Source: a virus. From it: 22,843 nucleotides of DNA. The notes beneath the pieces were generated by a model. The model was not told the DNA's origin. It searched no databases and saw only the letters and a list, made by a program, of their open reading frames with translations. Made by a program: the position numbers and the translations under genes. Position 1 is the first letter of the stretch, and each line of letters opens with the position of its first letter. The DNA is taken from IMG/VR virus record IMGVR_UViG_3300001351_000057, positions 1-22,843 of that record; one strand, given 5' to 3'. Below are positions 1 through 22,689 of this stretch, piece by piece.

Positions 1-3000
1 CGATCTTCAAGCGGACGATCTTCAGCATTATAATCTCTAGCCCAGAGCATTGACCAATCTCTTTGACTTGGCTGACCACCTTCATTAAACATCATGCGCT
101 TATCTGTCTTATCAAACGTACTAGCATTGATAGATTTGTACTGCTCAGGTCGGAATAAGATATAAGAGCCGCTAGTTCTTTCCCCTTCTAGCGAAGGCTC
201 AACCATGTTGCGATACTTAATAGAATCGAAACGCATATCCTCTAAAAACTTTTGTAGCTTTTTAGTTAACGTCACTTGACGCAAGCTGGTTGTTATTAAC
301 TGCTCTGAACTGTTAAAGATGTCAGGGAGAGAAGGCACTTCTAAAGCTTCAACCATCAGTGCATTTAATCTCTTTTGGAATTTCTCAGGTATCTTTCTAC
401 CAGTACCAGCTACGATAGCATCTATAAGTTGATTAGATGCTGAAGTCAGTAAGGTTTCTGCTGACCAGTTAGCAGCGTCTGTAGGGAAGACCAACGGGTT
501 CTTAACGTTCACATAGCCTTTCATTATACTAACGTTAGGCATATCACTAGAAGGCGGTAAGTCCATTGAGCCTACTTGATCTAATTCATCTGGAGTTATG
601 TTCTCAAAGTCTACATCTTCCATAGTCATTCCTTCACGACGAGCCTGCTCATCTGCAAAGAACCTATCCATTTCAGGACGAGCAACCTTTGGATCGCCAG
701 AGCCGGGAATTGACAAAGTGTCTTCCGCTCTACGATCATTAATTCCTTTAGCTGCCATGTAGTTTGCTTGGCCTTCAGTACCTACGTGTACACCCATTTC
801 TCTTGGAGATACAAACGCTACTTCAAAGTCTTTTTCTGCGAAGTCAGAGATGCCTCGGAACTTAGGAGTCTTTTCAATAGATGATGCTAGGTAAGCGTCG
901 AGGTTTTTAAGCCTTGCATCTTCAGCGATTCCGCTTGCTTGACCCACTTCTGTTCGAGGTGAATCAGCTTGCATAGACTTTAAAGTTGTCATAAGTTCAG
1001 AATTATCAGAATTGTTAGCAATGTAGTTAGTTATAATCTTTCTTCTACCCTCATCGGTAATGTCCTCAGAAGGTATAAACTTACTATTCCTAGCAAAAAT
1101 ATCTATAATATCTTCTAGTCCTTGCACCTCTTCTAACTTATCTATAGATGCTAACGAGCTTACGTGCGCTTTAGATGCTTCACGGACTTCCTCTAGATAA
1201 AAAGCAATGTCTGTGAACAAGCTTTGGTCGGGATCAAATTCTTCTCCCATCTCAGCTTGGTAATTGAAATCGTCTATCTCTTCTTCGGTATACCCACGAG
1301 AGACTTGGAAGTCTTCACCATATTCTCCATTACTCTTTGCCTGTATATCTAAAGTTTCTTTAGAATAAGGCTTGACATCCATATCCTTTTCTCGTAAAAT
1401 AGTCTTTATACTTAACGCTATGTATTCCTCAAGTTCTTCTTCACCGCCAAACTCATCTGCTTGAGAGCCAGCAATAGCTCCAAAATCAGCGTCGTCTGGA
1501 CTATAAGACTGACCAAATACCTGTCCTTCATCAGCGTTTAAACCTGCATTTGTTTTTATGTCATCGATAGCACTGTTAATTAACCTCGGATTTAAAATAC
1601 CATCTGTCGCATCGTTAACAGTTTCAGCTAAATAGCCTGACAGTTTCACGGCTCCCTTAGTCACTACCGAGCCAACACTAAAACCTTGACGCTCTGTTTT
1701 CTTAGGGTCAAGCTCATCCATAAAAGCTGAACCTGCATCTTCGTTATAGGGTCTACCTGTCATTTTATTTATACGCTCATCAGGCTCAGTCGGCGCATTT
1801 GGAATGTTAACCTCACCGCCTTTATTAAACTGTTGGCGACTTACATTATATTCGAACTCAGGTAAGAATCCTTTTAATCCTTTATCTTGTTCTTTCAACA
1901 TGGCTCGATACTTACGCATGTTTTCAGGGCCAGCTACAGTAGTGCCCGCTGCATAGAAAGGAATCTTAGTGCCTAATACTTGATTATATTTACCGTAAGC
2001 TATGCCTAAAGCGTCTGTAGCTAAAGGGCCGAAAGGTGCAGTAGCATAGCCAGTAATAGTACCTGAATACTTTGCAGCTTCGCTGGCTCGTTGTAAATTA
2101 TCAAACAACATACCGTTACCACCCCAACGTTTTATAGCTGCAATACGAGCCTCTGTGGGAGTCGTGTCTCTTTCACTAGCGCCGTTACTGCGGTAGAAGT
2201 TAGTCATCCGAGCTGTTTCAGTCATTAACAAGCCAGCCATTGCCAGCTTAGGTACGTTACGTCCTGCGTCTTTTGTTACAGCTTTGGCAGCCCCTTTAAG
2301 AACTGTGTTTGTAAAAGCTGCTGGGTAGCCTAGCAGTTGAAAAGCTATTGAAGTTTTAGGGTTTGAATGTAGTAGAGGTTTTAAACCCGACATTGCAGAA
2401 GGTTGTAATATTACTGAGTTAGTATATCGTGCAGCGCCACTCATCATGTCCTCATAAAAGGGGTCTTCTTTTAACCCACCTTTCTTTAACCACACAACAG
2501 CTTTATCAGGGTCAATGTTTAGTTCCAACAGTTCGCCTCTTAAAGTTTCCATGCGTCGTGTCATTGGTTGATTGCCGTGAGCTGCAAGCTTCCCTATGTT
2601 TTCGTTGATTAAATTTTTACCGCTTGCAAACGTAGTTGTTTGAACAAACTTAGTCCACTGATCTAGGAAGTTCATGCGGAAAAACTTATTGCTTACTTTC
2701 TGCATGGTTTCTGACGCTAAGTCATCGCCAGCTAGACGGTTTCCCATTTGAGCTTCAGCTTGCTCCATTGCAATACCGTGTTTCTTTAACTCTCGGAAAG
2801 CTTCATTGGCGGTTAAGCCATGTTTAGTCATAAGTTCAGAATGTAAATCGCCCGTTACTTTTTTAAAGCTCAATTCAGAAGCCTCAGCAAAACCTTTAAC
2901 AGAGTTTAACACTCCAGCCTTACCGATGTTTATAAATACTTCTGTGATACTACCTATAGTAGCTAAAGGTAATAAAGCTAGACGTGTTCCTAACGAATAC

Positions 3001-4982
3001 CCATCGGCTGCCGTCTGCATTTTTGAACCGTAACGCTCCATGTTCTCACCAGTAGCAGACCTATAAAGTTCTCGGATTTGCTCACGCTCTATCTTATTTA
3101 AAGTTTTTCCAGCCACTTTCATTTCTTTTACAATAGGGTTAATCCATTGACTCATGAATTCTTTTTCATTAGAAGCTAATAAGACTTTCTTTTTAGCTAA
3201 AGCTTTACCGGCTTGATAGTTATAGTCTAGTACAACATCCATTAAGTCAGTATTTAAAAATTCTGTAAATATAGAATCATCTTCAAATGTAAACTTACGT
3301 TTTGATGCAAAGAACTGTCCACCTGAACCACCATCAATTTGATTTTCAATGTCTAACATGCTTTCTGTGATACGCTCTGCTTCAGCTACATTTTTAGCCT
3401 CTCCAGATTTTACTAGGAGTTCTTGGAAAGCGTCAGGGTTTCTGTCAATAGCTTTCCTGTCCCACATGCGAGGAATATAGTTATCTATTTTATTAGCTAT
3501 TACACCTTCTGAGTATAATTGATCACCAATTGTTTTAAACAAACCTTGAATTTTCTTACCTGCAATACCTATTTCTTTAGGCACACCTTTAAAGTTTCCA
3601 CGTATTGCTTGGTTTAATAAATCATTAACCTCATCTGACACATTGCCTTTGATACTGTTCAAAGATAAAGGCTCTACAATTTTTAAGTATTGAGTAGTAA
3701 AACCTCCAGTGTACCTAGCTTGTGCTTCGCTAAGATCCATCCCAATACGCTCTTTAGTTTTTCCAAATCCTTCTGCAAACTCATGGCTAAAGCGTGTTTG
3801 TAATGTCTTAGCTGTATTAGAGTATTTAGTATAGGGAGTTAAGACCCCAGCACTTTTACCGAAAAAATTACCTGTCAAGTCTGTGGCAAATTGCCAAACA
3901 CTAAAAGCTAATTTATTCTTAATGAATTTTCCAGTAGCTCCTGACTTTAAGGCTCCAGTTACTACTGATTTAAACTCTTCTTTTGTAACGTCCCCGCCAC
4001 CTATGTCGTCTACAAAATCGTTGACAACATTATCTATGTCTACGTCTTTCATGTTTAGCACAGACCCTTCAGGGCCTTCTAATAAACGATCAGCAGTGTT
4101 AATGACTTTGCTGCCGCTGGCTGGTATCCATTCACCTTCAAGACCTTCATCAAACAACACCATACCTTTGCTTTCGCTCATTACAGGTGCGTCGTCTAAA
4201 TCTCTAGCTAGTCTATCGGTAGCATATTTACTAACTACTTTACCTATCCCGTAAGAAAGCGCACCACCAATGGCCGCACCAGACACAGCCGCCGTAGCTG
4301 CTTGACCTAAATCAATACCGTCTTTACGTTCTCCAATTTCAACCTCAAGATCTTGAACCGCTAAGTCTTGGATGCCTGAAATAGCACCTGTATAAGCAGC
4401 AGTGCTTTTAATAGGGTTGGATGATGCTTTAGCTAACACTTTAGCAAGTGCTGCTTTAACTCCAACACGTACAGAAGTCTGAGCCGCAGCGCCTCCTATG
4501 TTACCGAATATTAGAGAAAGGGCAGTCGGGAGTGTTTCAAAGTTAGCTAGTACATCTGTGCCGTAGTCTTTAGCAGCGTTAAGCGTTTCTTTTGTTCCTG
4601 TAACTTCAGTTTCTTCCCACTTGGTTCTAAGATCTCGATAGGCTTTTTTAACGTTTTCAGGTGCGTCAGACAAAGCAGCAGCTTTACCAGCCACAGAAGT
4701 GATACGTAAAAAATCATCACGTAAAAACTCGGCAGGGCCTGCATCACTATCAAGCATCTTAGTTGCAAAGTCTTGATGATCAGCTAAGTAAGTTGTTAAG
4801 ACATCATAATCCTTAACGACTGTAGCATTATTTTCAAAGTCCGTTACTGTATTACCTTCGTAAGAAGTAACTTTATCTAGTTCTTCTTCTGACAGTAAAG
4901 GCTTATAAGATGTTTCATCAAACGAACTCATGCGAGCGTGAGCTGCTTCAATTCTACTCAAAAAAGTATCTTGTTCAGACAT
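1..4982 (-). CDS. Giant virion/ejection protein with C-terminal ADP-ribosyltransferase-like domain (partial)
   Basis: The frame is open from the ATG at 4982 to the left edge, giving 1660 visible codons and no stop, so the C-terminus is missing. A GGAG site lies about 9 bases before the ATG, inside the end of the upstream gene, whose stop is 3 bases away. The protein is mostly helical and polar, with glycine-zipper-like hydrophobic stretches around residues 110-145 and 225-250 and others further on. Around residue 1055 is a GGEV sequence followed by EPDERINKMTGRPYN, which I recall from large proteins of marine podoviruses. Residues about 1372-1628 look like an ADP-ribosyltransferase domain. 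Size, position at the end of the structural operon and large helical neighbours suggest an internal protein ejected with the DNA, in the place of T7 gp16. I see no lysozyme or transglycosylase motif in the visible part. The virion location is inference; the domain call rests on motifs only. Confidence 0.8.
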   Translation of the reverse strand, partial: MSEQDTFLSRIEAAHARMSSFDETSYKPLLSEEELDKVTSYEGNTVTDFENNATVVKDYDVLTTYLADHQDFATKMLDSDAGPAEFLRDDFLRITSVAGKAAALSDAPENVKKAYRDLRTKWEETEVTGTKETLNAAKDYGTDVLANFETLPTALSLIFGNIGGAAAQTSVRVGVKAALAKVLAKASSNPIKSTAAYTGAISGIQDLAVQDLEVEIGERKDGIDLGQAATAAVSGAAIGGALSYGIGKVVSKYATDRLARDLDDAPVMSESKGMVLFDEGLEGEWIPASGSKVINTADRLLEGPEGSVLNMKDVDIDNVVNDFVDDIGGGDVTKEEFKSVVTGALKSGATGKFIKNKLAFSVWQFATDLTGNFFGKSAGVLTPYTKYSNTAKTLQTRFSHEFAEGFGKTKERIGMDLSEAQARYTGGFTTQYLKIVEPLSLNSIKGNVSDEVNDLLNQAIRGNFKGVPKEIGIAGKKIQGLFKTIGDQLYSEGVIANKIDNYIPRMWDRKAIDRNPDAFQELLVKSGEAKNVAEAERITESMLDIENQIDGGSGGQFFASKRKFTFEDDSIFTEFLNTDLMDVVLDYNYQAGKALAKKKVLLASNEKEFMSQWINPIVKEMKVAGKTLNKIEREQIRELYRSATGENMERYGSKMQTAADGYSLGTRLALLPLATIGSITEVFINIGKAGVLNSVKGFAEASELSFKKVTGDLHSELMTKHGLTANEAFRELKKHGIAMEQAEAQMGNRLAGDDLASETMQKVSNKFFRMNFLDQWTKFVQTTTFASGKNLINENIGKLAAHGNQPMTRRMETLRGELLELNIDPDKAVVWLKKGGLKEDPFYEDMMSGAARYTNSVILQPSAMSGLKPLLHSNPKTSIAFQLLGYPAAFTNTVLKGAAKAVTKDAGRNVPKLAMAGLLMTETARMTNFYRSNGASERDTTPTEARIAAIKRWGGNGMLFDNLQRASEAAKYSGTITGYATAPFGPLATDALGIAYGKYNQVLGTKIPFYAAGTTVAGPENMRKYRAMLKEQDKGLKGFLPEFEYNVSRQQFNKGGEVNIPNAPTEPDERINKMTGRPYNEDAGSAFMDELDPKKTERQGFSVGSVVTKGAVKLSGYLAETVNDATDGILNPRLINSAIDDIKTNAGLNADEGQVFGQSYSPDDADFGAIAGSQADEFGGEEELEEYIALSIKTILREKDMDVKPYSKETLDIQAKSNGEYGEDFQVSRGYTEEEIDDFNYQAEMGEEFDPDQSLFTDIAFYLEEVREASKAHVSSLASIDKLEEVQGLEDIIDIFARNSKFIPSEDITDEGRRKIITNYIANNSDNSELMTTLKSMQADSPRTEVGQASGIAEDARLKNLDAYLASSIEKTPKFRGISDFAEKDFEVAFVSPREMGVHVGTEGQANYMAAKGINDRRAEDTLSIPGSGDPKVARPEMDRFFADEQARREGMTMEDVDFENITPDELDQVGSMDLPPSSDMPNVSIMKGYVNVKNPLVFPTDAANWSAETLLTSASNQLIDAIVAGTGRKIPEKFQKRLNALMVEALEVPSLPDIFNSSEQLITTSLRQVTLTKKLQKFLEDMRFDSIKYRNMVEPSLEGERTSGSYILFRPEQYKSINASTFDKTDKRMMFNEGGQPSQRDWSMLWARDYNAEDRPLED
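99..869 (-). other. ART-like domain encoded within the giant ORF
   Basis: This segment encodes residues about 1372-1628. In order it shows TPKFRG and a short spacer, then GVHVGTEGQA (H at 1399, GT at 1401-1402), then the strand YVNVKNPL at 1490-1497, the RFDSIKYRN strand, and SGSYILFRPEQYKSI (Y at 1607, E at 1613, Q at 1614), ending in a STFDKTDKRMMF tail. This order (H-x-GT..QA, a 'VKNPL' strand, 'FD.I.Y.N', 'SYI.F.P.Q.KS', then a Thr-Phe-Asp ending) is what I know from ADP-ribosyltransferase domains of phage and plasmid polyvalent proteins. A long helical insert (about residues 1505-1570) separates the second and third motifs. Which residues are catalytic is inferred from motif position. 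Confidence 0.7.
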
Positions 4983-4985
4983 TAA

Positions 4986-6881
4986 TTATACTCCGGGAGT
5001 TGCGTTAATAAGTTCGAGATAGCGTGTGTAAGCATCACCTGCGCCTTCTGGAATGTAACCGTTTGTTCGTTCCATTTCGTCTTTTATCTTAGACCGTAAG
5101 TTAAGTAAGTTTTTTTCACGTCTTGCTTTCATTTTAACAGAAGCCCTATCTCCTTGACGCTCTATCGTAGTTACTATTTGATTATAGTCGTTAATGTAGT
5201 TTGAGGCTTTCTTTTTGGCTGCACTATAAATAAAGTTCTGTTCAGCTAGTGATTGCAGCTCGGCGTATGTCTTAGTTGATGCTGTAGCTGGTGGTGGTGT
5301 AACTGTTGGTGGTGTAACTGTTGGTGGTGTAACTGATGGTGGTGTAACTGGTGGCTCAAGAATAGAGTTTAGACTTGCTAGAGCTTCAGGGTTATTTTTT
5401 AACAAGTCAGTTATTCTAGCTCGTCCTTCATCACTAAGGGGGCCATCATAAGCTTCTATGTTATTTGCATACTCGGCCATAAAAGATTTTTTAACTTTTG
5501 CGTTGTAGCCAACTGAGCTAGTACGATTTTTTTCTAACTCTGTAACAGCTACATAAGCTAGAAGTGGATGGTATCCAGCACCGCCTGTGATTAAATTATT
5601 TTTACCTTGAATACGAGCGCCAAAACCTGTTTCATCTATCATGCCAGAAGCGTTAAGTACGTGCATTTTAGTTGCAATTTCTTCAGCTTGTTTAGCTGTT
5701 GTGTTGCCCATTGACTGTAAAGTATTTTGCGTGATTAACATCTTGCTATAAATATCATTGGCTGTCACTTTAGACCTGTCTTCATCAGTTGAGCCATTAA
5801 GTAAAATCGTAGCGTATCTCCCTAACACATCAACATCTTCTACAGTTGAATACTGAGCTACGTTAACTTTATGTTGCTCTACCTGATCTGTATTTTTTTT
5901 AAGGTAAGCAGCCGCTTGTTGAGTATAGGTTAAATCCGTTTGAGTTACTTCTATTTGAGAATCAATGTCAAAGAACGATAAAGCTCCAGTTGCGTCTTTT
6001 CGTTGTATAACGCTTTTGTCTACAGTCTTAGGTGCTTCACCAATTACACCTGTATCAACAGGGACTTTTATTGTAATAACTTCAGTGCTCACAGTGGCAA
6101 TGCTCATCTTTTTACCAGCGTCTGTCCACTCTTGAATTTTAGACTGTGCTAAAAAGGGTTCTAGACCCATGCGTCTAAGCTCTCCGTAAGCTTTAACATT
6201 TTCAGAGCTTTTCATAAGGTCATTTGCTTTGACGCTATTATCCAAAGGATCTCCATCCTTATTAAATATACCTTTAAATTTACGCAAAAGTGCAGTACCT
6301 ATGTTATCGCCTCTTTGAGCTACTAAAGCATCAGTGTATGCGCTTGCGCCTTCTTTACCGACACGCTCTAGAAGCATTCTGTCTTGTTCGGCTGAGCTTT
6401 TATAAAGTTTTTTAAGTTCTGCTCCTGCTCTAAGACTTTCATTATATAAAAGTTTTTCTCTTTGACCTGCATTATATGTGTCGGGGATAGCGGCGTTAAA
6501 AGAAGGCGTTATCGTCGCTAAAGCTTTAGAGCGCCAGAATTCATCTTCACCAGCCTCGTGAACTGAAGCTAGGTTTCGATCATTAGTGCGGCCAGTAGCG
6601 CCGCTAAGCGCACTCTTAAACTTTATGTTATTATTTAAAACTTCTTGTTTTTGCAAAAAGTTTTCAGTCGAAGACTTCACCAAAGCATTGCCAATACCTA
6701 ATATAGCTTTTGCTCCATAACCATAAAGCAACTGACGCTTCTCCCGTTTACGGGCATCCCTAGCTTGTTTATCTCTATCTTTTTTATACGCAGTGTATTG
6801 ATCATCTCTACGCTGTCTCGTGCCTGCTAATAAAGATTCACCAAATGCTGTAATGTCTTTTCGTTTACTCAAGTCAGTCAT
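4986..6881 (-). CDS. Probable internal virion protein, 631 aa, with TVTPP repeat linker
   Basis: No enzyme family is recognised. The N-terminus (about residues 1-50) is very basic and charged, with clusters of Lys/Arg and Asp, and is followed by a hydrophobic Gly-rich stretch near residues 52-70. The middle is a long helical, polar region. A proline-threonine linker near residues 510-535 repeats TVTPP, and a short basic helical tail of about 95 residues follows. An AAAGGTAT ribosome-binding site precedes the ATG, and the stop lies 3 bases before the giant ORF, so the two are likely translated together. Its place among large helical proteins after the tail genes suggests an internal or ejection protein; function is inferred from context only. 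Confidence 0.8.
   Translation of the reverse strand: MTDLSKRKDITAFGESLLAGTRQRRDDQYTAYKKDRDKQARDARKREKRQLLYGYGAKAILGIGNALVKSSTENFLQKQEVLNNNIKFKSALSGATGRTNDRNLASVHEAGEDEFWRSKALATITPSFNAAIPDTYNAGQREKLLYNESLRAGAELKKLYKSSAEQDRMLLERVGKEGASAYTDALVAQRGDNIGTALLRKFKGIFNKDGDPLDNSVKANDLMKSSENVKAYGELRRMGLEPFLAQSKIQEWTDAGKKMSIATVSTEVITIKVPVDTGVIGEAPKTVDKSVIQRKDATGALSFFDIDSQIEVTQTDLTYTQQAAAYLKKNTDQVEQHKVNVAQYSTVEDVDVLGRYATILLNGSTDEDRSKVTANDIYSKMLITQNTLQSMGNTTAKQAEEIATKMHVLNASGMIDETGFGARIQGKNNLITGGAGYHPLLAYVAVTELEKNRTSSVGYNAKVKKSFMAEYANNIEAYDGPLSDEGRARITDLLKNNPEALASLNSILEPPVTPPSVTPPTVTPPTVTPPPATASTKTYAELQSLAEQNFIYSAAKKKASNYINDYNQIVTTIERQGDRASVKMKARREKNLLNLRSKIKDEMERTNGYIPEGAGDAYTRYLELINATPGV
5293..5352 (-). 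repeat. 15-bp tandem repeat, four copies, coding for TVTPP units
   Basis: On the plus strand the unit GGTGGTGTAACTGTT occurs at 5293-5307 and 5308-5322 unchanged. Copies 5323-5337 (ending GAT) and 5338-5352 (ending GGT) differ in the last two or three bases. The period of 15 keeps the reading frame, so copy number could change without a frameshift. The encoded Pro-Thr linker probably forms an extended, flexible spacer between two helical domains of the 631-aa protein. Confidence 0.9.
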
Positions 6882-8596: not shown

Positions 8597-11500
8597 TTAT
8601 AAATCAAAGCTTTCAATAACTTTTAAAAGACTTGATGCTGTAGCCACACCACCTGAAGCGTAAGCACCCTCATTAGAAATTACAGAAGTGATAAGTTGTA
8701 CTTTCCGCTGTTGATCATTTTCAAAGTTGTTATTTGCATGAGTACCTTCATCTCTAAATTCCTGCCATAGTTGCGTATGCTGCGCTATATCTAAATTGAA
8801 ACTATTGGAAATGTTTAATCTGTTGGCATCATTCAAAGCTGCTGTATCAGCAGTGTTTGCATTTCTACGCCACGTAAGATCACCCTGTTGAATAGTTTGC
8901 GCATTAGAAGCGTTCCATTGATCTCTACTATTTTGCATGTTAGCATTAAATCTTTCTGTCTCAGAAATTAACGAAGCATTAGCTATTTCTGCTTGTAGTT
9001 GATTGCCCGCATTCTCAGCGTTTACTTTGTTTGCTTGCTCAGCATTAAATCGTGCCATCGTGTCTGTTTGAGTAACGTTAAACTGGTCTATCTGTGTAGC
9101 TAAACTAGCCATGAATTCATTAGTCTGGTTTTCACTTGTAGCGTTAAACTGTGCTGCCGCATTAACCGCTGAGGTATCGTTAAGTAACGCTTGGTGTTCT
9201 TGTTGTGACGCTAACATATTAGCTTGTTGAACATTCGTTAAATTAGCTAAGTCTGTTTGTAAGAAAGCGTTTGCATTTTGTGCTGCAAGCTTAGCGTTCT
9301 TGTCTAAGTTAGCTACGTCCATTGAAGCCTGTGAAGCCGCATTTTGAAGGATGGCTGTGTTCTTAGCGTCAAAATCTGCTAGAGACATTGTTTGCATAAA
9401 CTTACTATTTGTAATTTCAATCTGTTCTGCCGCACTAAACTTAGCTAAATCAATATTGGCTACGGTTGTTGCGTTTGTAACTGCACGTTGTTGATCAGCA
9501 TTTAACTGGGCGATCCCCATGTTGCTTGCGATGTCGGCAGCTTTTAAATTTGTTTTTAGTTTAGCATCTAAGTTAGCCAGTTCTGTTTGTTGTGCAGCGG
9601 TTAAGTTATCTGCACTTGCGTCATTACGAGCTTGTAAGTTTGCCATTCTCATCTGTTGTTCATTAGACATATTAGCTATGTCCATCGACTGCTTTAACTC
9701 AGCGTTCTTAGACAAGAATTCTGCCGCAACGTTCATTTCTGCAAGCTTTCTTTGGTTATCAGCAGACATATTATCTCTGTCCGACTGCGCTTCAAACTCT
9801 AAATTAGCAAGAGTCATTTGCTGTTCGTTGCCTAAGTTCAACGCCATTGTTTCTTGTTTGTTTCTATTGTTCTGTTCAGCAGTGCGTTGACGATTTTCTA
9901 AGTTAGCTAAACGTGTTTGTTGTTCTTGATTAGCTGTAGTAATAATAGATTCTTGCTTAAAAGTTCCTTGAAGCTTTTTGAAGTCATTAGCCATAGATGC
10001 TGTTTGACTAGCGGCTGTTTGTTGATTAGCTAAGTTATTCATGCGTCGATCCATGTCTAACGTAGCGGTTGTAATATTTGCCTGTTGTTGATTGTCTAAA
10101 TTCTGAGCAGCTCGTTTCTGTAAAGCGTTAGCATTGTTTTCTGCAATAGGCATAGCGCTTTGAATAATAGCATTGAAGAGCGCATCTCGTCCTACCGTCG
10201 AAACACTTAGACCTCTTTCGGCCATCATTGCGTTCACTTTATCTACAGCCGGTCTTGCCCATACAGGAGTCTTGCCGCCCTCTAATGCGCCTAACAAGCT
10301 TTCAATCTGTGAAGACATTAAAGCTTCTTTAGGTAAAGCGGCAATAGCTGCCTTAACTTCTACAGGAGCGTTATCTAATTGTGCTACTACTTTTTCAGGA
10401 TCGTCTAGAATAGCAGTTGCAACTTTCGGAGGTAGCTCACCTACTTCTGCAAGCATATCAACTGCAACGCCCTGAGCGGCTTCGCCTTGCACTGGACGAG
10501 TTCTAGTGATTTCGTAGCCTAGTGTATCTGTAATCTGTGTTGCTTCACCTGTGCTATAAGTATCATCTGTAATAGCTTCACGAGTATTAGCTTCGGCTTC
10601 TGGAGTTGCTGAAACAGTAATTTCTGCACCCGTCACAGGGTCTACCATAGACTTTAAATCCATCTCAAACTCTGGCGCTTCTGCCATCCCAGCCGCTTCA
10701 GCTTCGGTGTCTCTCTCCGCTGTGGTTGCTGTGGTGGTAAGTGTAGCGTCATCTACAGATGCTAAAGATCCTTCGCTTACTTCGCCTACAGCAGCTTTAG
10801 GGCCTTTGTAATCTGCTTCAGCTAATGTCTCTGCATTTGTTTTTGCTGTAATTGTTTTAGTTTCTAAAGTTTTTGCAGCCGCTGCCGTGCCTGCCGCTCC
10901 CGCTGCCACTGGTGCAAGCGTATTAGGAGATACTAATTGATCCTCTGTGAGTTCAACCTCGTCCATATCTTTTAGTTTAACGACATCCTTAGAGTCGGTG
11001 ACTAAAGTTTTATCTGTTTTAACTACACTCTCTGTAGCGTCTGGCACTGTAGGCGTTGTAGGTCGTCCATTTGCGTCAACCTCTGGTCGTTCACCGCCTA
11101 AGTCTATAGTCGTTACACCTGCATTTTCTGCCATGTCTGAGTCTCCAACATCTTCTGATGTTTGTTCGTTTACGTTAAGAGCGTTTGTAGCGGAGGTTAC
11201 TGTACCTCCAGTTACGATTGTATTATCTGATGAAGCTGTACCGCTGCCGCTACTTACAGTTCCGTTAAATCCGATATTTCCAGAACTATCATAATTACCT
11301 AAATTTAGGTTCGTAGTGATTTGTGACGTGTCTGGTATATAAGTATCTGACCCGCCCGTAAAGGTTGAAGGTATGCCGGATATGGTGTTACCCGCAGCAT
11401 CATATAAGTTCATGCCCGACTGGATCACGTCACCCACTACGGGTAGTCCTGTCATAGCGTTGAGTACCACACCTGTAGCTTGCCCAACAGCGTCGGTTTT

Positions 11501-12076
11501 AGCGCCCTCTACAAAACCCATTTTAGCTAGTGCGCCTTTTGAGATGCCGTAGTAATCTCCAGCTAATGCGCCTATTGCTGCTCCTGTTACAGCGGAAACA
11601 AAAATACTTTTAGCTGAATCCCAGACAACAGAGGTCAAGCTTGGTTTTGTTACGGAATCTAATCCCTCTTGTGTTGGGGCGCTTATATCTAAATTTAATT
11701 GATTAGAAGTTAAATCAATATTACCGTCATTAGTCTTAGGTGACGTAGTTCCCTGCGTGGTAGCAACGGTTGACGTAGTTTCGGGAGAAGAGCTGAAAGT
11801 TGACTGCTGCGTTAGAGGCTGATCATAGTATCTTAATATAGCCTCTCTCTGGTCAGCGGTCTTGCCTTCTAACATAGTATATTCAAATCTACCTTTGCCG
11901 CCAGAACCTCTTGGGTTTGAAGTCCAGTAGTTTTGTCCTGTTTGATTCTGATTCCACCCTTGAGGCCCTGTGCCACCGCCACCACCTCCGTACCCGCCCG
12001 GTGCAAAACCTTGACGTTTAGCTTTAAGTTTCTTTAAAACCTTTTTAGTGTTTCTTTGGCTACGTTTATTGCTCAT
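8597..12076 (-). CDS. 1159-aa virion protein with a C-terminal undecapeptide-repeat array
   Basis: The protein has four visible parts. Residues 1-60 are basic then Gly/Asn/Gln-rich and probably disordered. Residues about 149-190 hold a hydrophobic Gly/Ala segment (VSAVTGAAIGALAGDYYG) that could span a membrane. Residues about 270-640 are acidic, Thr/Ala-rich and mostly polar. From residue 648 to about 1131 the sequence is an array of 11-residue units with Asn (or Asp/Gln) at position 1, often Leu/Ala at 2, and Ala/Phe/Gln at 11. The last 28 residues are outside the array. The start overlaps the glycosyltransferase stop by 4 bases (ATGA) and has an AAAGGTAT site. The composition and location fit a large internal or ejection protein, but a fibrous external role cannot be excluded. 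Confidence 0.85.
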   Translation of the reverse strand: MSNKRSQRNTKKVLKKLKAKRQGFAPGGYGGGGGGTGPQGWNQNQTGQNYWTSNPRGSGGKGRFEYTMLEGKTADQREAILRYYDQPLTQQSTFSSSPETTSTVATTQGTTSPKTNDGNIDLTSNQLNLDISAPTQEGLDSVTKPSLTSVVWDSAKSIFVSAVTGAAIGALAGDYYGISKGALAKMGFVEGAKTDAVGQATGVVLNAMTGLPVVGDVIQSGMNLYDAAGNTISGIPSTFTGGSDTYIPDTSQITTNLNLGNYDSSGNIGFNGTVSSGSGTASSDNTIVTGGTVTSATNALNVNEQTSEDVGDSDMAENAGVTTIDLGGERPEVDANGRPTTPTVPDATESVVKTDKTLVTDSKDVVKLKDMDEVELTEDQLVSPNTLAPVAAGAAGTAAAAKTLETKTITAKTNAETLAEADYKGPKAAVGEVSEGSLASVDDATLTTTATTAERDTEAEAAGMAEAPEFEMDLKSMVDPVTGAEITVSATPEAEANTREAITDDTYSTGEATQITDTLGYEITRTRPVQGEAAQGVAVDMLAEVGELPPKVATAILDDPEKVVAQLDNAPVEVKAAIAALPKEALMSSQIESLLGALEGGKTPVWARPAVDKVNAMMAERGLSVSTVGRDALFNAIIQSAMPIAENNANALQKRAAQNLDNQQQANITTATLDMDRRMNNLANQQTAASQTASMANDFKKLQGTFKQESIITTANQEQQTRLANLENRQRTAEQNNRNKQETMALNLGNEQQMTLANLEFEAQSDRDNMSADNQRKLAEMNVAAEFLSKNAELKQSMDIANMSNEQQMRMANLQARNDASADNLTAAQQTELANLDAKLKTNLKAADIASNMGIAQLNADQQRAVTNATTVANIDLAKFSAAEQIEITNSKFMQTMSLADFDAKNTAILQNAASQASMDVANLDKNAKLAAQNANAFLQTDLANLTNVQQANMLASQQEHQALLNDTSAVNAAAQFNATSENQTNEFMASLATQIDQFNVTQTDTMARFNAEQANKVNAENAGNQLQAEIANASLISETERFNANMQNSRDQWNASNAQTIQQGDLTWRRNANTADTAALNDANRLNISNSFNLDIAQHTQLWQEFRDEGTHANNNFENDQQRKVQLITSVISNEGAYASGGVATASSLLKVIESFDL
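8684..10135 (-). repeat. About 44 units of a 33-bp (11-aa) coding repeat
   Basis: Residues 648-1131 of the 1159-aa protein split without gaps into 44 units of 11 residues. Examples are NLGNEQQMTLA, NLTAAQQTELA, NANAFLQTDLA, NVTQTDTMARF and NAEQANKVNAE. The register is strongest for the first 38 units (8882-10135) and looser after that. DNA identity between units is low, so the periodicity is in the protein. A period of 11 fits hendecad coiled coils (three turns of alpha helix), so a very long helical rod or bundle is the likeliest fold. This is inference. Confidence 0.85.
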
Positions 12077-12939
12077 TTATATACCTTTAATTCGGGGAGT
12101 ACAGTATCTACATGTAAGTAATTTAAGTTTTCCATTTGTCGTATTTTTGTTAAGTATATTTTAAGCCAATTAAAGTCTGTTAGGTTATTTGTCTCTTGAC
12201 TTAACACTCCAAAGCTGGTATAATTATATATATAAGTTATGGGGTTTTCATTATAAGTATACATCTTTAAAGTATTTATAAGGGCTTCATGCTTTAATCT
12301 TAACATTTGTAAGGCATCTTCACCTATCTTTACATCCTCATCAAACTTAAACTTAGCCGCTTCTTTACTAAACCAAGTTACTCTACACTGGATCTCATTA
12401 CCTTCACTATACTTCTTTTGCGTTATAAAATATTTCTGCCTCCAGAGAGCGTAACGTAATGCTTTCTGATGGCCGTAACCTTGTTCATTCTTTAGTCTTT
12501 CGTAACAAAAATCTTTAATTAGATCTTTATAATTTACAGTAAACATTTTCGTAGCTTTACCGTCAACCATGCTCACTTGATTCTTTAAACAAACTGCGTC
12601 AGGAGGAGACTTAGAAGCTGCTATGTCTTTATAAACTTTAACGCCCTGTGGAGTTAAATAATCATCTCCGTCTACTAAGACACAATAATCATTATCAGAA
12701 GCTAGAAAAATATCAAGGACTGAGTTTTTGCCTTTAGCTGGTGTGCCGTTGCTTTCAGTGATATAGTATTCTAGCTCGTTCTTTTTACAATAACTCTCAG
12801 CTTGTTGAACGTAGTTGACATCTAAGCTGTTAATGATAACTACAGTGTCCTCTATTGGGATGTTGCTGTACTCTGAACTATTGTGTCTTTCTAAATCTTT
12901 TAAACCTTGTGAAGTTAATACGTAGAATTTAACTCTCAT
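12073..12939 (-). CDS. GT-A fold glycosyltransferase (family 2-like)
   Basis: The 288-aa protein has a GT-A pattern: an alternating beta/alpha N-terminal half, a TPAKGKNSVLDIFLA segment (residues 66-80) where family 2 enzymes have a nucleotide-sugar loop, then YCVLVDGDDYL with the DxD-type metal site at 90-93 (D90, D92, D93). A GEDAL motif (E207, D208) fits the catalytic Glu-Asp seen later in these enzymes. It would transfer a sugar from a nucleotide sugar to an unknown acceptor. It starts in an ATGA overlap with the holin stop and ends in an ATGA overlap with the 1159-aa gene, so it is fixed in the late operon. The substrate cannot be told; host surface glycan or a virion protein are both possible. 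Confidence 0.8.
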   Translation of the reverse strand: MRVKFYVLTSQGLKDLERHNSSEYSNIPIEDTVVIINSLDVNYVQQAESYCKKNELEYYITESNGTPAKGKNSVLDIFLASDNDYCVLVDGDDYLTPQGVKVYKDIAASKSPPDAVCLKNQVSMVDGKATKMFTVNYKDLIKDFCYERLKNEQGYGHQKALRYALWRQKYFITQKKYSEGNEIQCRVTWFSKEAAKFKFDEDVKIGEDALQMLRLKHEALINTLKMYTYNENPITYIYNYTSFGVLSQETNNLTDFNWLKIYLTKIRQMENLNYLHVDTVLPELKVYK

Positions 12940-22095: not shown

Positions 22096-22100
22096 TTATC
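22069..22100 (-). terminator. Stem-loop overlapping the stop of the 197-aa gene
   Basis: The minus-strand RNA has GATAAGG pairing with CCTTATC (7 bp) plus CTA with TAG across a 2-base bulge, closing a 10-base loop. The stop codon of the upstream gene lies in the 5' arm. The following sequence is AAAATTTAA rather than a U-run, so a terminator is weak and an RNase III-type processing site is an equal option. Confidence 0.45.
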
Positions 22101-22689
22101 GGTTATAAACACTTGGGGTTCTATTAGCTGAGATCATTGTTCTTTTAATGTCTCGGTTAGTGTCCTTTACTTCAGATACCCCATTAGCTTTTTCGCTATA
22201 AAGAGGGTCTTCAGTTAGACCGCCAAATGCTTTCTTGGTTCGACCACCTTGTTCATCAAACGTGCGTTCCGCCTCATCCATCATTAGTTGGAGGTTTTCT
22301 GCACCGATTAACTCGACAGCCTTTGCGGTGAATACAAACTCACCTTCCGATAACCTAGCTGGTATCGAATCTGATACTCCAGTACCGATCCCTTCTACGG
22401 AACCTTCACCAGAGAATTCTGCTGCAACGTCTAAGACTTTATCAAAGACCATTGCTAATTCTGCGTTGCTTTCTAAAGCTTCTGAAAGCATGTCTTGCTC
22501 TTCTTCTGTGAGAGCTTCACCTAGTACGAAGTCTTGGAAAGTATCTTCCATCGCCTCGTCAGGTAGCTGAGAGGCTTCTGCTGCTTCTTTTTCATCTTCA
22601 GGAATATTATCGTAAGTATCTTCTAATTCCATTTCAGGTGTAGTGAGCATTGAACCTTCATTATATTTAACTTTCATTTTATCTTTCAT
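22096..22689 (-). CDS. Acidic 197-aa protein with SDSIPARLS motif
   Basis: The N-terminal half is very acidic and probably disordered, with Glu/Asp-rich helices (EDEKEAAEASQLPDEAMEDT). Residues 99-140 contain EGIGTGVSDSIPARLSEGEF followed by TAKAVELIGAENL, a recurrent small motif in marine phage proteins of unknown role. The C-terminus is basic (KDTNRDIKRTM). It starts one base after the stop of a tiny ORF, with AGGA before it, and lies between the portal and scaffold genes. It may be a head-assembly or portal-associated factor; that is inference from position. Internal Met codons 5 and 14 are weaker starts. Confidence 0.8.
   Translation of the reverse strand: MKDKMKVKYNEGSMLTTPEMELEDTYDNIPEDEKEAAEASQLPDEAMEDTFQDFVLGEALTEEEQDMLSEALESNAELAMVFDKVLDVAAEFSGEGSVEGIGTGVSDSIPARLSEGEFVFTAKAVELIGAENLQLMMDEAERTFDEQGGRTKKAFGGLTEDPLYSEKANGVSEVKDTNRDIKRTMISANRTPSVYNR

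Follow-up and report, generated by a model that had tools for sequence, protein, structure and literature searches.

The locus raises the question of whether a giant podovirus protein, encoded at one end of the 22,843-base linear IMG/VR virus record analysed here (the whole stretch, hereafter the window), carries an ADP-ribosyltransferase (ART) domain into the host cell at infection and whether this domain acts as an enzyme there. The initial annotation had described an ORF of more than 1660 codons, whose residues 1372–1628 (window 99–869) bear ART motifs in a fixed order. All of this was confirmed in ORF 4982..3 (−), in which GVHVGTEGQA, YVNVKNPL, RFDSIKYRN and SGSYILFRPEQYKS..STFD follow one another in that order (Table 1). 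As most complete relatives with a fused ART are 1805–2577 aa long, the window has only part of the giant protein.

Table 1 Positions of the giant ORF, its parts and its upstream neighbour in the window
Feature	Position	Strand	Description
Giant ORF	3..4982	−	At least 1660 codons, truncated by the window edge; virion-type (ejection) protein bearing C-terminal modules
N-terminal virion part, residues 1–1061	1800..4982	−	Homologous to LUZ24-type PaP4_053 and to PHROG virion structural families
Linker FNKGGEVNIPNAPTEPDERINKMTGRPYNEDAGSAFMDE	1700..1830 (approximate)	−	Joint at which relatives have the C-terminal module attached, on an ORF of its own or missing
ART-fold domain, residues 1372–1628	99..869	−	Related to ART-PolyVal by sequence; putative R-H-S active-site configuration
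R1376 codon, FRG, strand 1	855..857	−	His in canonical ART-PolyVal, tankyrase and A-4L gp27
H1399 codon, GVHVGT, strand 2	786..788	−	Invariant (42/42)
E1595 codon, NxxE	198..200	−	Invariant (42/42); also in canonical ART-PolyVal
S1606 codon, front of strand 5	165..167	−	Invariant (42/42); expected acid absent here and one residue earlier
Second GG linker MMFNEGGQP and start of C-terminal module	3..98	−	Continues into SLT-like region in the 86%-identical L005
Upstream neighbour, 631 aa	4986..6881	−	Internal-protein block; kept beside the giant ORF in relatives; no known family

With the window domain alone, the Pfam family ART-PolyVal (PF18760) was matched weakly (E 0.011–0.015, 16.5–17 bits, below the cut-off of 31.2). 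Relatives were gathered stepwise from IMG/VR and 42 distinct domains were aligned; the resulting family spans 24–98% identity, has 13 invariant columns and retains all of the motifs given above. At a threshold of E ≤ 0.01, ART-PolyVal was matched by 15 of the 42 domains, the strongest match having E 5.7e-7; a second recurring family was not seen. Using hhalign, the 42-sequence profile was compared with five canonical ART-PolyVal members (99.2%, E 7.6e-20), with a score of 128 for the real pair and of at most 8.7 for 30 column shuffles run as control. An independent polyvalent protein (L039), which scores above the ART-PolyVal cut-off (37.2 bits as a fragment, 52.9 bits as the whole ORF), has the elements PREMGVH.GT..QA, Y...NPL, G[FY]DSI.Y.N..E and SYI.F in common with the window clade and was also matched when compared alone with the 42-sequence profile (98.1%, E 1.2e-13). 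Direct searches of PDB sequences with the domain or its profiles gave chance matches only. A weak match of the Pa223 tunnel protein to the ART region (E 0.53) was taken as chance.

Motif order and core are shared with ART-PolyVal, the Tox-ART-HYD2-like ARTs of phage polyvalent proteins (Iyer et al. 2017, PMC5512222). The common core comprises strand 1, G.H.GT..[QA]A, Y.N.KNPL, G[FY]DSI.Y.N..E, SYI.F.P.Q.K and a TFD-like tail, and the window domain likewise sits on a large multidomain phage protein near virion genes. Judged by these sequence comparisons, residues 1372–1628 are an ART-fold domain related to ART-PolyVal, and the polyvalent type first proposed for it was upheld by the shuffle-controlled profile match and by the family members that match PF18760.

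Structure prediction with AlphaFold2 gave a pLDDT of 39.5 when 9 close sequences were supplied; 42 diverse sequences were needed for a model with a pLDDT of 81.6 and a pTM of 0.79. In this model, helical inserts occupy about residues 40–110 and 136–214 of the domain. Foldseek ranked chain B of 9k3a (‘Cyanophage A4 pre-ejectosome’) first among PDB entries, with an E of 0.29 that is weak when taken alone; upon re-alignment to the model, this chain reached a VIA Z of 5.9 over 141 residues, and tankyrase ART domains reached Z 5.1–5.9 over ~105 residues. These two were the non-helical families spanning residues 1–248, nearly all other rows covering the inserted helices only. In the viral library BFVD, five matches were found at E ≤ 0.001 (best 8.9e-7), and the sixth was a named ART-PolyVal-like protein. 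All structural Z values were below 8 and level with helical bundles in the match list; as proof of the fold they are insufficient alone, and the ART assignment is carried by the profile evidence described above. HMM–HMM comparison and structure prediction had been suggested at the outset as a check, and their outcome was divided: the ART-PolyVal profile match spoke for the proposal, the structural matches of the model to A-4L gp27 and tankyrases were weak, and the catalytic residue set expected with it was not recovered.

Chain B of 9k3a is gp27 of Anabaena phage A-4L (cyanophage A4), a protein of 1717 aa annotated as ‘tail protein’. Its gene (L112, 20116–25269 (−), NC_024358) encodes, at residues 1422–1600, an ART-like domain with H1426-Y1448-D1586 on which the annotation is silent. 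LYHGT, GSGTYFSKS and DTTLVINP lie in the aligned stretch, and the sole Pfam match of gp27 is ART-PolyVal, at a weak 12.9 bits. Like the ejection-type protein of the window, gp27 of the podovirus ejectosome carries an ART-like domain, and it is the window domain's top PDB match; unlike the window clade, it keeps the H-Y-D set, and sequence similarity between the two is undetectable.

The active-site register was inferred from alignment end points, on which two unrelated templates agree. Domain residue 5 (R1376 of the giant protein) would lie on A-4L H1426 and on tankyrase H1031/H1184. Position 234 would fall on A-4L D1586 and residue 235 immediately behind it, at the place of tankyrase E1138/E1291; the tankyrase residues named are catalytic. 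R5 was chosen as the strand-1 residue because the A-4L and tankyrase structural alignments both start at residue 1, with the model strand at 3–7. In hhalign, strand 1 is put in another register, at the edge of the local alignment.

At position 5, the place of the strand-1 catalytic His (.HG[TS]) of ART-PolyVal, Arg was found in 40/42 sequences, Asn in 2/42 and His in 0/42, and the His is present in 5/5 canonical members. The strand-2 position is His in 42/42 sequences of the window clade and in 5/5 of the canonical GxHxGT subgroup; the published strand-2 Tyr of ART-PolyVal is absent from the window clade, and the His of the GxHxGT subgroup is retained. Position 234, the strand-5 acid just before SYI, is Tyr in 23 of the 42 sequences, Glu in 3 and Asp in 1, and its equivalent is D/E in 5/5 canonical members. 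Glu24, His28, Asn221, Glu224, Ser235 and Gln243 are invariant in all 42. In this alignment, the window clade is read as R-H-S and the canonical GxHxGT subgroup of ART-PolyVal as H-H-[DE]; the family itself was described as H-Y-D (Iyer et al. 2017, PMC5512222). Relative to ART-PolyVal, the window clade is set apart by its strand-1 Arg (40/42), the lack of a strand-5 [DE], scores below the Pfam cut-off in the window domain and the helical inserts. The expectation that His, Tyr and Glu/Gln share one pocket had to be given up: the His of GVHVGTEGQA appears to stand where strand 2 would have its Tyr, YVNVKNPL probably does not supply the catalytic Tyr, Arg replaces the strand-1 His and the strand-5 acid is missing. 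Three ART clades have been named, H-H-h, H-Y-[EDQ] and R-[ST]-E (PMC7955679), and the R-H-S set therefore puts the window clade outside all three. Measured against R-S-E, the strand-1 Arg is present, His stands in strand 2 where Ser/Thr would be expected, and no acid occurs at the start of strand 5.

Replacement of the catalytic H, Y and D of ART-PolyVal by Arg, His and no acid counts against an enzyme. A domain that has kept fold and ligand pocket and no longer transfers ADP-ribose, its ligand being NAD+, a different nucleotide or a peptide (so as to sequester ADP-ribose signals, for instance, or to dock a host or virion protein), would account for the strand-1 change from His to Arg in 40/42 and for the lost strand-5 acid, both of which canonical relatives keep as H and [DE]; pseudoenzymes without His and Glu exist, such as PARP13 (PMC7955679). 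Against such a loss of activity, R5, H28, E224, S235 and Q243 are strongly conserved among relatives at 24–38% identity, and all three residue types occur in active ART clades, Arg in R-S-E and a strand-2 His without acid in TRPT1 (PMC7955679). The dN/dS ratio of the window versus relatives, 0.14–0.18 for the ART domain, likewise opposes it; the virion part has 0.13–0.15, and the ART domain is therefore not decaying. The invariant H28, N221, E224, S235 and Q243, together with R5 in 40/42, argue for a retained ligand site. Because each residue type occurs in an active clade, an enzyme stays the leading reading, and the inactive binding domain is a strong rival that we hold to be possible and somewhat doubtful. 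A bolder version of the enzyme reading, in which an undescribed ART clade with an Arg-His-Ser/NxxE site is a swappable cargo ejected by marine podoviruses and transfers ADP-ribose to an unusual acceptor, such as phosphate as in the non-acidic H-H-h enzyme TRPT1/KptA, and not to a protein side chain, is unlikely. Macro-domain partner genes were searched for in 27 related records and none was found.

The carrier was characterized by its N-terminal part. Residues 1–1061 matched PHROG virion structural families, with phrog_6958 in 6/6 relatives tested, and the N-terminal part was aligned with Bruynoghevirus PaP4_053 over ~290 residues (hhalign 97.3%, E 2.6e-11). PaP4_053, annotated as ‘phage particle protein, similar to LUZ24’, is homologous to this virion part; it differs from the window protein in its length of 1055 aa and in having neither an ART nor another recognised C-terminal module. 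The gene upstream of it, PaP4_054, is the Pa223 periplasmic-tunnel ejection protein (PDB 9nxo). Among PDB sequences, no match to the giant protein was found. Packaging of the giant protein in the virion is a prediction well supported by homology, and its placement in a block of internal-type virion proteins, as initially annotated, agrees with the PaP4_053 and PHROG matches and with the solved podovirus pre-ejectosome protein that carries an ART-like domain.

Several neighbours were also inspected. The 631-aa upstream neighbour and a 1159-aa ORF were each compared with the Pa223 tunnel protein as possible homologues, and no relation was obtained for either. The 1159-aa ORF (window 8597–12076 (−)) lies in the internal-protein block, has long repetitive NLxxQ-type stretches and no family match, and is a candidate elongated ejection or core protein. 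A 288-aa ORF in the structural block (window 12073–12939 (−)) has a glycosyltransferase-like look (VLVDGDDY motif) and no PHROG match. For the virion part, a likeness to the hydrophobic stretch at the C-terminus of polyvalent protein L039 was likewise examined and found unsupported.

To collect related loci, the virion part served as seed for a scan that covered the + strand of the loci after orientation. Some of the loci nearly duplicate one another, and an ART was called absent only where at least 2.5 kb of downstream sequence was available. Among 75 loci, 47 have the ART fused, 14 have it on the following ORF and 14 have none; 5 further loci were cut. In ten separate-ORF cases, the ART ORF always comes immediately after the virion-type ORF, the two ORFs overlapping by at most 23 bases or lying less than 80 bases apart. 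ART-less proteins mostly retain the PDERxNK linker and then end or bear other modules. Fused, next-ORF and absent loci together with the kept linker therefore mark the ART as optional cargo at a fixed attachment point, and the earlier picture of an ART built into the ejection machine as a fixed part was abandoned. In L090, the virion ORF and the ART ORF, which are in different frames, share 23 bases at the GG linker (5897–5919); normal coupling, a frameshift site or an error in sequencing could each explain this. At module boundaries of these giant proteins, a [FYM]xxGG motif recurs (window 1700–1830 and 60–100 (−), L021, L008, L025 and others; for example FNKGGEV, MFNEGGQ and C-terminal FAEGGLV), often with PDERxNKxTGxPYN alongside; the motif marks the points of fusion and fission and might act as a signal for processing or attachment.

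The module following the ART differs among relatives, being a Pesticin-type lysozyme, an SLT-like region, LysM or others. In L058 (8769–9605), whose ART is 98% identical to that of the window, a Pesticin-type lysozyme (82 bits) follows, and in L005 an SLT-like region (16 bits, below cut-off); this is a clean swap of wall-hydrolase modules. The last residues of the window resemble the L005 type. The architecture of polyvalent proteins, with a virion part, ART and Pesticin, SLT-like or LysM module, was thus encountered in relatives, the window ending before its own last module.

The covalent fusion to an ejection-type protein in 47 loci, and the ordered ART-like domain of A-4L gp27 within the pre-ejectosome model, could also be explained by a domain that is a part of the ejectosome channel or core without any host target. 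We consider this improbable, given a module that 14 related loci lack and 14 encode on a separate ORF, and C-terminal modules that are freely swapped (Pesticin-type lysozyme versus SLT-like region). Stand-alone ART ORFs and the position in the late structural block would in turn suit a module that acts in the producing cell, for instance in lysis or against host defence, rather than after injection, its virion fusion being incidental; with the ART persistently joined to the virion-type protein or encoded right beside it in the 61 ART-positive loci of the set, this is the least probable of the explanations weighed. The lack of a covalent joint to the virion protein in some relatives also counts against an injected cargo.

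A second ART-PolyVal domain, above cut-off and with a strand-1 His (LFHGA), was noted in the record of L023 (IMGVR_UViG_3300025132_000119) as L027, 157–1842 (−). It forms the N-terminal fusion partner of what looks like a homologue of window ORF 22096–22689 and adjoins a portal-like gene, and the phage may have two ARTs.

By major capsid protein, the nearest cultured relatives of the window are the pelagiphages HTVC115P (56%), HTVC103P and HTVC104P, which are not among the records matching the giant protein's listed hosts. No isolated phage with the window ART clade was found by tblastn of the phage collection with window, L021, L025, L085 and L097 queries, and a genome_contigs scan gave no confirmed relative; the lineage of the clade consists mostly of marine uncultured podoviruses.

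Virion-carried ARTs of other phages offer comparisons. The prototype polyvalent ART, the virion RNA polymerase of Roseovarius Plymouth podovirus 1 (CBX87992), is also a giant podovirus virion protein with ART-PolyVal; it differs in its N4-like RNA polymerase and peptidase-like region, its strand-1 His (YHGT) and its being another virion protein. T4 Alt is injected and modifies RNA polymerase, as has been demonstrated, and the window domain is proposed to resemble it as a virion-carried ART acting early. Alt belongs to the R-S-E clade (PMC5512222), in contrast to the R-H-S set of the window, whose injection and any RNA polymerase target would be conjectured by analogy. Virion-embedded polyvalent ARTs, those of podoviruses included, have been predicted to be injected (PMC5512222, PMC9503650), and this kind of protein is already published. 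In our literature search, no paper linking ARTs with podovirus ejectosomes in the present sense was found; as far as this search shows, novelty lies in the clade with its altered active site, in its uncultured lineage, in its fusion, separation and loss beside an ejection-type protein and in its connection with a pre-ejectosome of solved structure.

Our preferred reading, to which we assign a probability of about 0.5, is that an ART-fold effector is optional C-terminal cargo on a podovirus ejection-type protein, which is packaged, injected and acts early as an NAD+-using transferase on a host molecule. The giant protein would travel in the phage head and be expelled when infection starts; the peptidoglycan hydrolase or LysM module that neighbours the ART at the C-terminus would aid wall crossing, and the ART module would reach the host interior. 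There it would most likely bind NAD+ and, at an early stage of infection, pass ADP-ribose on to a host molecule by means of the unusual R-H-S site and the invariant Glu of NxxE. The family tie, the conservation, the selection, the attachment or proximity to a virion-type protein and the optional presence are established by the data, and packaging, injection, NAD+ use, transferase chemistry and target are deduced from them and from homology.

ARTs have been reported in ~3% of podoviruses and are mostly tied to contractile-tailed phages (PMC9503650). The window and its relatives represent a lineage of marine podoviruses whose ejection-type protein has an ART joined to it or encoded beside it, and the solved pre-ejectosome of the isolated phage A-4L, with its matching H-Y-D domain, makes the injection of ADP-ribosylating effectors by short-tailed phages directly testable. 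The altered active site is a natural test of which residues are required for ART chemistry, and the domain may be an enzyme of a type not yet described that is injected to tamper with the host, or else a relic that only binds.
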